The notes under the pieces are model-generated. The model ran no database searches. It was not told the DNA's origin and saw nothing but the letters and a program-made list of their open reading frames with translations. Position numbers and translations under genes: made by a program. DNA of 64,000 nt from Owenia fusiformis. Lineage: Eukaryota > Annelida > Polychaeta > Sabellida > Oweniidae. Positions 44,196 through 49,500 of this stretch are shown piece by piece; position 1 is the first letter of the stretch; each line of letters opens with the position of its first letter. The stretch is taken from NCBI GenBank assembly GCA_903813345.2, contig CAIIXF020000009.1:22469759-22533758 (forward strand). Direction: 5' to 3'.

Positions 44196-45400
44196 ATGGA
44201 TTCTAGAAATGATTTAAATGAACAAGTACAAGAGGGAATGCTTCCCATACTTCCCAATGGCAAAAACTGGCACGTTTTCTTAGTCAGTGCTTCAAAGGAT
44301 CGAACATTCGCAAGGAATTTCAGTGCCCAGATGGAGGCATTTTCCTTTCGAACTATGTTACACGAAAGAGACTATATACCCGGGGTAACCGTGATTAGTA
44401 ATATCCAAATGGCAATAAGGAAATCAAAGGGAATGATACTGATTCTAACTGAAAATTTTGAAGTTAGTAATTGGTGCAAATATGAGGCGCAGCAAGGAGT
44501 CCAAGAAATGATCAACTCCAATGGTGAATTCAAAGTAATAGCGGTCCGTAGTGGAATAAGAGAAGTGCCTAGCTATTTGAAATGGCTTCCAACATTCGAG
44601 TCTAACAACCCCCACCTCGTGGATTTAATAGTCGCATATATGAATGGTAGGTTATTAACACTAACGGCAGAGAACGTTGGGGTCCTTTTGAAAGACAATT
44701 TCTTTAAAGATAGATCTTGATATCAAAAAGTTTGGACCATCCGTTGTTAAAAACACGCGTATCTCCTTAAAAAAAGTAGAAACAAAAATGATATTTCAAA
44801 GTATGTAGATTATCCGTTTTAGGTGATGAAAATATACTTGAGCGACAGACCAACCCCGATGAAGAAACACACCGTGGAGTTGTAGTCACCCACCAGCATA
44901 TACATAACACGTACAATTTCAATAATGTAGATGGCATGGTGCATATAGGTGACAATAGCATTCAAAACGTTTCAGGTGAGTTGCATGAGAAGCTCTAGGC
45001 ACTCATCACTTACTCATCGTCAACTCCCTTAATGTAAATAATATGGTGCCAATTGTTGACACTGAAGTACATTCGACATGTTTCGAATTCGATTTATATT
45101 GAAAATTAGAAAAAAAAAACTATTTTATAACAGTTACATGTTCTTATGTAAAATGTGAATTTTTCAGCTCGGGAACTTGCCTTATATCTGCAGGGTGCAA
45201 CTATTCAGAAGGATTTGACACGTGCCATCGAAATGACAGATAAAACGATCAATAGAAGCTTGGTGGTCACTCAGGATACACAAGATGGTGAATCATCACG
45301 TTTAGCTATAGGTTGTGAAGCAAATGATGCGTCTTATATTTTGTCCAATGATGTGCAGGAGCCATGGTACTCTTGGTTCATCTACTGGTTCAATGAATAA
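44196..45400 (+). CDS. TIR domain protein with a RHIM-like motif, TRIF-like layout
   Basis: Exons 44196-44646, 44823-44975, 45168-45400 with matching phases (1, 1) give 278 residues. TIR domain at about 25-150: HVFLVSASKD (26-35), LHERDYIPG (55-63, the BB-loop/box 2 position), KSKGMILILTENF (76-88), and SNWCKYE with E97. That Glu aligns with the catalytic Glu of SARM1-type TIR NADases but is also common in receptor TIRs, so it does not decide between enzyme and adaptor. Residues 181-200 read YNFNNVDGMVHIGDNSIQNV. The centre VHIGDNS resembles the RHIM core (I/V)Q(I/V/L)Gx.N, with His in place of Gln, and is close in pattern to the RIPK3 core VQVGDNN. The last 77 residues are not recognised. 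AATAAA lies 46 bases after the stop. Reading through the first donor would give a TIR-only form ending at 44720. Confidence 0.85.
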
Positions 45401-46546: not shown

Positions 46547-49500
46547 TTATCTGTTGCACTCGTAGAAGATCTGAACCCTACGGATGTCCAAAGCATCAAG
46601 TCGGGTCCTTTGACCAATATTGGCATTAGAATCACGTGGTACGATGGTCCTGACACGTCTGTTAATGGCAAATGCGTACGCACCATAGTGCATCACCGAG
46701 TTATAGTTGTAATTTGTACCCAGGAGGTCAATTCGTCCAACGGCAAGTTTTCTAAAGTTGCCTTCGGTTCCTATCAAAAAAGTAAGGATCATGTAATCAT
46801 AATTCCAAATGTAACTTTAATTACACATATAGCAATTTCTGGACGGACACGAAGATTGATTTATCATCATCAAATAAAATATTGTAGTAAAATCAAATCC
46901 GGAGTACTTGAACTATTTGTTTTCATTCTAGAAAAGTAATAGTAGTACCTCGTCTGATGTTGCTCCAGTTGATTGTGACAAAGTTATCTCTGTCACTGCG
47001 ACTCTGCTCGTGGTAGAACCCGAGAGCGTGGAGAAACTCGTGCATCACCGTCCCAATACGTTCACAACCACGTCCGATGGATAGAGTCTGGGCACCTCCA
47101 CTTCGGCCAATACGTGAGAAACATCTGGAAGCGTCAGAGACATATGTTATGTATGGTTTGCCAACCTACCCTATGTATGCACACGTTTTTTACGGGCGTG
47201 TAGGCGTTAATTACGTCTGTGCAGACGTAAAATTACGCCCATGCAGACGTAATTTACGCCCGTGTTGGCATTAATTACGCCCGTTAAGAAGTGAATTCTA
47301 TACACGTTAAAACAAATACAGGCGTAAACTAATGGCGTTAAAATGTTCTATAGCGGGAGTTAAGACATTATTTAACACGCGTTGAGAAACATCTATACGC
47401 CTGTCGAGTTTATTTTAGCGCCGTGAATTATGAACCAATCAGCATCTTGCTTACATAATGATACAATGCATTCTAACTAAAAGTGCAACTCCAAAATCCT
47501 TGAGCAAGTTAATAAGATACTCACGATTGTGCCAGGAACAACTATTGCAATTGATGGCATATGAAACATTATTTCTTTTCTGGGTATCTTGGTGCCTTAT
47601 TTGTGCAAATGTGAGAGATGTACTGAAAATAACATGTGAATGTGAATAACATGTGTTTTAACGCGTATAGAATTCAGTTCTTAACGGGCGTAATTAACGG
47701 CTACACGGGCGTAATTAACGCCTACATGGGCGTAAATTACGTCTGCACGGGCGTCATTTTACGTCTGCACGGGCGTAATTAACGCCTACACACCCGTAAA
47801 CAACGCGTGTATACATAGGGTAGGTTGGCAAACCATAGTTATGTCTATATTTCACATCACCGGTGTTATATATGTAGCCTAGTTGTCATGTTGGTGGCGT
47901 GATTATTATCGTGGGGCGTCCCGTTTTTTTTCATCGCGATTCCAGGAAAATCGCTCATTGGATTTTCTGATTTCTGATTTCGGAATAGTTAAAACAGATT
48001 GACGATGCATTGTAGCACCACTAACCCCTGCAGTCTTCGTACGAGAATGTAATCTCTCTCATTGGTCCTTGGTCTGATGTTAAGGCAAGCTCGTCCTCCG
48101 ATCGCCGTCTGTCTGTTCAATGTATTAATCCCATCCAGGATTCTCGTTCGTACCGCAGAAGCTAAAGCAAAATGAATTCTTAAATTGGTAATTCCTATGT
48201 TTTTCCTTTCTTACCAGGAAATCAATGAAGAAACGAAAGAAAACGATAGGACTACAAAAAATGGATCCTTCATATATAAGCGTAGACCATATACATTTCA
48301 AAAGTATGCAAGCGGCGATTTCAACCTTTTTGAAAATCAAGGCTATTCGGCCAAGTAGTGAAGTCATGCTTTTCAGAAAGTCGAGATGAAGAAAAACAAT
48401 TGACTCACGGAATTCAGAGTGGATGACGAATGGAACGACGCCATTTGCCCACCTACGAGCCCTGTTGGTCATGGCATTGAAGAGATCGGGACTCTGGAAG
48501 GTACATTATTAAGCATAATCTAGCTACAGGCCTTTGTGCTTCCCCCACAGACTACAACACTACACACCTCCCAAAATTGAAAAGTGTCATTGCCATACCT
48601 GTGTAGTTACGTAATGGAGGTCACGGGGGCTTGTAGGTCAATTATATCATGTAATATAGAATTTTAGAAAATGATACTACTATAAGAATAGAACGTAGAG
48701 TGTGCATATAACTGTGAAATTAGTCCTATATTTGAAGATTCAGGAAATGGATTCAGTTTCCAAGCCATCATTGAAAATACATTAATTTTGCAACGATTAC
48801 CTTTATATAACTTATGGTATGGAGTAAGGCAAAACCTCACCCCTTTCAAAATAATGACAAGAAAATATTCTTGTTAGTTGGATGGTCACTGTTTGTGCGG
48901 TTTTAACATAACTTTTGATGTTATTTCCAATGGTATATTATATATGCAGTTAATAGTGTTTGTGACGGATATGACAAAATTGCAGCTTAATTACTTCAAA
49001 ATTACAAGTTAATTGCTTCTCTGTTTTCATTATGACGTAATACCTGCTAATTACATAATAGCATATGTTTTTCCTAATATAGCATTTTTGTGAAATATTG
49101 TTTAAAGTAACAACAAAGATTAACAAATAAAGATGGTATATTTTGATTTTTTATTAATCGGAAAAATTATTGATATATCAATCTTATCAATTGTGGAAGT
49201 TGTTGAAAAATTAAGATCTATAAATGTCCACATTTTTTTAGAAAATAGGGGTGTCTATTTTTAGAACTATGTTTGAGTTTTTTAAGAAGGTCTAACATGG
49301 AATGTTGAGAACAAATGGTCTTACTCGTCTTTGTTACCCCTTTAATTGATTCGCATACACTTACATTTGGATCTTCATCAATATCACCCTCAAACTTTCC
49401 TGAAATAAATAAACCAATGTATTATGTTTAACTTTAAAATGATTCAATAAAATGTGCCATTGTTAAAATTGTATTGAAGATGTTACTTTCACTCTAAATT

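Follow-up and report, generated by a model that had tools for sequence, protein, structure and literature searches.

A TIR domain of the TIR-STING lineage joined to an insect-type, RHIM-like VHIGD motif in the annelid Owenia fusiformis: a candidate TIR-to-amyloid adaptor

Introduction

The canonical RHIM follows the consensus [IV]Q[ILV]GxxNx[MLI] (PMC9440496), and in human RIPK3 some single changes of the core tetrad (TQIG, VQSG) abolished NF-kB activation (PMC12119088). In the vertebrate adaptor TRIF (TICAM1), which has no receptor part, the RHIM lies C-terminal to a TIR domain, and in lancelets the TICAM RHIM is reported to be absent (PMC9440496). RIPK1 genes with a RHIM and a Death domain have been described in mussel, Lingula and lancelets (PMC12119088). 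In insects, the core of the cryptic RHIM of Aedes PGRP-LE and IMD is reported to read VHIG (PMC9531809), and overexpression of these proteins, as whole proteins and not as the peptide discussed below, gives ThT-positive aggregates. Finally, metazoan TIR domains are known in fusion with STING (PDB 6wt6/6wt7). Within the literature in our scope, which takes in few subscription papers, we found no description of a TIR domain combined with a cryptic RHIM outside the TICAMs.

Here, we analyse a gene of Owenia fusiformis that appears to combine these elements. It lies in a window of 64,000 nucleotides (contig C9:22469759-22533758) of a 498-Mb genome assembled into 525 contigs, at least 12 of them chromosome-scale; an earlier note had read it as a TIR domain joined to a RHIM-like motif.

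Results

When spliced, the three exons of the window gene (Table 1) yield a single open frame of 278 aa, both introns being of phase 1 with GT/AG borders, so that the three-exon reading with compatible phases holds. With a slash at the splice border, the donors are ATG/GTAGGT (intron 1) and CAG/GTGAGT (intron 2), and the acceptors TTTTAG/G and TTTTTCAG/C; the model is based on the frame, the splice sites and a paralogue on contig C8. Exons resembling, by eye, those of an astacin-like metalloprotease (HEFLHALGFYHEQSRSDRD) adjoin the gene on the minus strand (window positions 46547-47165).

Table 1. Features of the window gene, in window coordinates
Feature	Position	Strand	Remarks
Exon 1	44196..44646	+	start codon, N-terminal 25 aa, TIR domain; phase-1 donor at end
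TIR domain	44271..44549	+	box 1 HVFLVSASKD, box 2 RDYIPG, NWCKYE; genome position C9:22514029-22514307
Intron 1	44647..44822	+	phase 1, as in the C8 paralogue (L046)
Exon 2	44823..44975	+	linker and RHIM-like motif
RHIM-like stretch	44912..44971	+	YNFNNVDGMVHIGDNSIQNV; in exon 2
VHIGD core	44939..44953	+	same in the C8 paralogue; tetrad VHIG is the insect cryptic-RHIM tetrad
Intron 2	44976..45167	+	phase 1; donor 37 nt past the first base of the Val codon, likewise in the paralogue
Exon 3	45168..45400	+	C-terminal 77 aa, aromatic tail EPWYSWFIYWFNE last; stop 45398-45400

The TIR domain (residues 26-118) is as clear as had been claimed, scoring above the curated cut-offs of the Pfam profiles PF01582 (2.6e-12; 47.4 bits, cut-off 21.3) and TIR_2 (1.9e-11; 44.9 bits, cut-off 28). 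In a PDB sequence search, it matched a metazoan TIR-STING fusion at 2.4e-6, with TRAM, matched weakly (0.008-0.013), far behind TLR2, TIRAP and TIR-STING, and with no match to TRIF at E<=1. A tree of 34 TIRs, all drawn from the Owenia genome and thus without TICAM rows, paired the window TIR with that of the C8 paralogue (89/88) and united both with seven TIR-STING TIRs in a 9-row clade (100/99) apart from the TLRs. The next-best relatives after the C8 paralogue reside on contigs C7, C5 and C346, several of them in tandem, and are TIR-STING fusions, given that exons matching PF15009, the STING ligand-binding domain, follow downstream on the same strand. Downstream in these genes, the shared stretch LEIGLQGNDVGFGMAxGYFYSYLN was assigned to STING by eye, the PF15009 matches lying further on along the same strand. 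About eight such loci (L047-L051 and L055: C7:10960-10983k, C7:12832k, C5:30324-30330k, C346:219-223k) form an expanded family. PF15009 has no match near C9:22514000, so that the window gene is not itself a TIR-STING fusion. The TRIF N-terminal domain likewise has no Pfam match within the 278-aa protein, in which the TIR is preceded by only 25 aa. The TIR exon ends in a phase-1 donor at the corresponding position in the C8 paralogue and in three TIR-STING genes, the scan used finding none in the others. Judged by its sequence relationships, the window TIR thus belongs to the TIR-STING lineage and is not TRIF-like; the change may have run in either direction, through loss of STING or through its gain. 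Of the two origins envisaged in the earlier note, a distant relationship to TRIF and an independent invention, the former is rejected by the PDB ranking and the TIR tree, and the latter is favoured.

Outside the window, the genomic TIR sequence that best matches that of the window gene (C8:13975329-13975688; 41% identity, overall range 38-41%) lies on a chromosome-scale contig and belongs to a gene (L046) of the same construction. A TIR exon, a linker and motif exon ending in ...YYIHECDNVHIGDVIHTYFT and a short final exon share a single frame, and both introns are of phase 1. The distance from the Val codon of VHIGD to the second donor is identical in the two genes (Table 1). Over the last 30 residues before this donor, the two proteins share 5 identities, and these are precisely the VHIGD block; if the identities were placed at random, five contiguous ones would be expected with p 1.8e-4, and of about 200,000 shuffles, 10 gave an identical block of five residues at one position. 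Because three of the five VHIGD codons differ silently (GTG/GTA, ATA/ATT, GAC/GAT), the residues have been kept, and the block is not a recent copy. The Asn that follows the Asp is not retained in the paralogue. Outside VHIGD, the tails encoded by exons 2 and 3 align no better than shuffled sequences, which leaves VHIGD, its position and the phases of the introns to carry the case. Exon 3 of the paralogue is shorter and lacks the aromatic C-terminal tail; a possible common (S/A)YIL stretch, seen by eye, is not significant by alignment. No RHIM-like exon was found behind any of 12 other TIR exons scanned, those of TIR-STING genes and of more remotely related TIR genes, and a second search with the paralogue as query found no third family member, so that the conservation of the motif spans two genes of one genome. 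Within this scope, the recurrence of VHIGD at the same place argues that the motif is more than chance. The union of a TIR domain and a RHIM-like motif in one gene is accordingly borne out by the closest paralogue, and the pattern that the earlier note had named as adverse to its reading, loss of the core with conservation of the rest, is the reverse of what we observed, with VHIGD kept and the tail around it diverged. Upstream of the paralogue, a second TIR exon (L046:6369-6695, minus strand) carries an in-frame TGA in box 2 and is possibly decayed.

Compared with the RHIM consensus, the window core, VHIGDNSIQ, has His for Gln, Ser at the Asn position (G+3) and Gln for the hydrophobic residue at G+5. 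The RHIM-like character of the motif and its junction to the TIR domain stand, but the Asn match in the core that had been proposed does not, the matched Asn being at G+2. The Pfam RHIM model matched neither the window motif nor that of the paralogue, even at E 10, but did match five other stretches of the genome. When scored with a canonical RHIM profile, the window motif reached 3.5 bits, a value expected by chance ~0.09 times per tail of such length, compared to 34-38 bits for canonical members, although those sequences helped to build the profile. The identification as a canonical RHIM is therefore rejected, the three consensus residues being absent and the Pfam model silent. A PDB sequence search with the window tail returned chance matches only. 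By contrast with the canonical definition, the insect-type core, V-H-I-G, is present in both genes, the comparison extending over the tetrad only; among 162,741 residues of open frames in the window and the other loci examined, VHIG occurs three times, two of these in the window gene and the C8 paralogue. Given that the Aedes PGRP-LE and IMD proteins with this core form ThT-positive aggregates on overexpression (PMC9531809), a signalling amyloid is compatible with His at the Gln position. The substitution itself, which had been taken to make activity uncertain, is confirmed, and the worry attached to it is eased. However, some tetrad changes in human RIPK3 cost it NF-kB activation (PMC12119088), which speaks against activity of the altered core, and the four-residue match to the insect tetrad may be convergent.

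Canonical RHIMs are also encoded elsewhere in the genome: NVQLGHGN and a neighbour (C3:19306-19307k), NIQIGDGN (C6:83605), NIQIGNNN (C3:21852k) and NVQIGDNN (C523). At C3:21852k, a Death domain exon (7.7e-16) lies downstream of the RHIM, and the kinase exons upstream of it, joined by eye, have RIPK1 as their best PDB match (3.7e-32); the resulting gene (L058 and L065; C3:21851-21864k) comprises the kinase exons, a disordered middle, the IQIGNNN RHIM and the Death domain. The two RHIMs at C3:19306-19307k (L056; VQLGHGN and VQAGNSN) are ~370 bases apart and equal in number to those of ZBP1. The IQIGDGN motif (L057) lies in a long, disordered-looking frame, and upstream at this locus a related stretch (NPSLR..., ARPK...) recurs. 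The exons next to the VQIGDNN exon (L059; C523:37470-37520) look by eye like those of a large RNF213-like protein, and a TRADD-N-like match beside the RHIM exon is weak (3.6e-4) and below the cut-off.

Discussion

Each of the closest described systems shares part of its design with the window gene. With the metazoan TIR-STING fusions it has in common the TIR clade, the phase-1 donor seen in three of those genes and the PDB match, but it lacks the STING ligand-binding domain and carries the VHIGD tail after the TIR instead. With the insect Imd-pathway proteins PGRP-LE and IMD it shares the tetrad VHIG, as reported for Aedes (PMC9531809), although those proteins have PGRP or Death domains where the window gene has a TIR, and homology is not demonstrable over so short a motif. 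TRIF has the same layout, with the TIR ahead of a RHIM-type motif close to the C-terminus, whereas the window TIR falls outside the TICAM group, the TRIF N-terminal domain is missing, and in the core Gln is replaced by His and G+3 is not Asn. The RIPK1 of mussel, Lingula and lancelets (PMC12119088) has a counterpart in the kinase, IQIGNNN RHIM and Death exons of Owenia, but is a kinase and not a TIR adaptor. We tentatively favour, as somewhat short of probable, a soluble adaptor with a TIR of the TIR-STING lineage, in which a putative insect-type cryptic RHIM (VHIG) stands where the fusions have their STING part, TRIF-like in function and of independent origin.

The strongest competitor, which we regard as a serious possibility, accepts the TIR-VHIGD architecture as real and conserved but takes VHIGD for an ordinary short binding motif or a beta-strand docking site and not for an amyloid core. 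The failure of the canonical RHIM tests speaks for it, as do the conservation of five residues only and flanks devoid of the remaining RHIM pattern; yet the conserved tetrad coincides exactly with the core reported for insect cryptic RHIMs (PMC9531809), VHIGD is C-terminal to the TIR as is the RHIM of TRIF (PMC9440496), and RHIM signalling proteins are encoded in the same genome. Orthology to vertebrate TRIF/TICAM would account for the shared order of TIR and RHIM-like motif and for the lack of a receptor part (PMC9440496), but is highly improbable, given the affinity of the TIR to TIR-STING and TLR TIRs in the PDB search, the support for its clade with TIR-STING, the missing N-terminal domain and the reported absence of the TICAM RHIM in lancelets (PMC9440496).

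Two further explanations deny the tail a function or even a place in the protein. A decaying duplicate, that is, a TIR-STING-lineage gene without STING that is drifting and retains the motif as a relic, would fit the free divergence of the two tails and the interrupted TIR exon adjacent to the C8 paralogue; nevertheless, both genes keep three-exon open frames and well-preserved TIR boxes, and the VHIGD codons are kept in both with silent changes, which makes decay unlikely. Slightly less likely still is a TIR-only gene in which exon 1 continues to the stop at 44718-44720 (a 182-aa stop-to-stop frame) and the downstream exons are chance frames or noncoding. Exon 1 indeed has its own open frame with a stop downstream, and the donor of intron 1 is modest, but the same exon phases and the equally distant VHIGD in the paralogue speak against this reading, as do the silent codon differences within the motif.

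Returning to the cryptic-RHIM adaptor, the window protein plausibly works like TRIF or like an Imd-type adaptor, by analogy with those systems; that the gene is expressed, that its product forms amyloid, and its partners and pathway, we infer. The TIR would dock onto other TIRs, those of TLRs or of TIR-STING oligomers, and thereby concentrate the tails; the clustered VHIGD stretches would then seed a cross-beta assembly, either with themselves or with the canonical RHIM of a RIPK1-like kinase, and the signal would in this way reach the machinery of Death domains, NF-kB or cell death. The kinase-RHIM-Death protein described above is a possible partner, and the aromatic C-terminal tail could touch membranes. 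In its full form, a TIR-to-amyloid adaptor that evolved independently of TRIF from a TIR-STING-family TIR exon and a cryptic RHIM, and that links a RIPK1 amyloid signalosome to TLRs or to the sensing of cyclic dinucleotides (STING), this scenario is rather doubtful.

Outside vertebrates, most of what is known of RHIM signalling comes from the Imd proteins of insects and from a small number of RIPK1 genes. The natural replacement of Gln by His in the core of the window motif would offer a test of what a RHIM needs for assembly. If the proposed reading is true, the coupling of TIR domains to amyloid arose more than once, here in a genome that also encodes TIR-STING fusions along with a RIPK1 gene that has a canonical RHIM.
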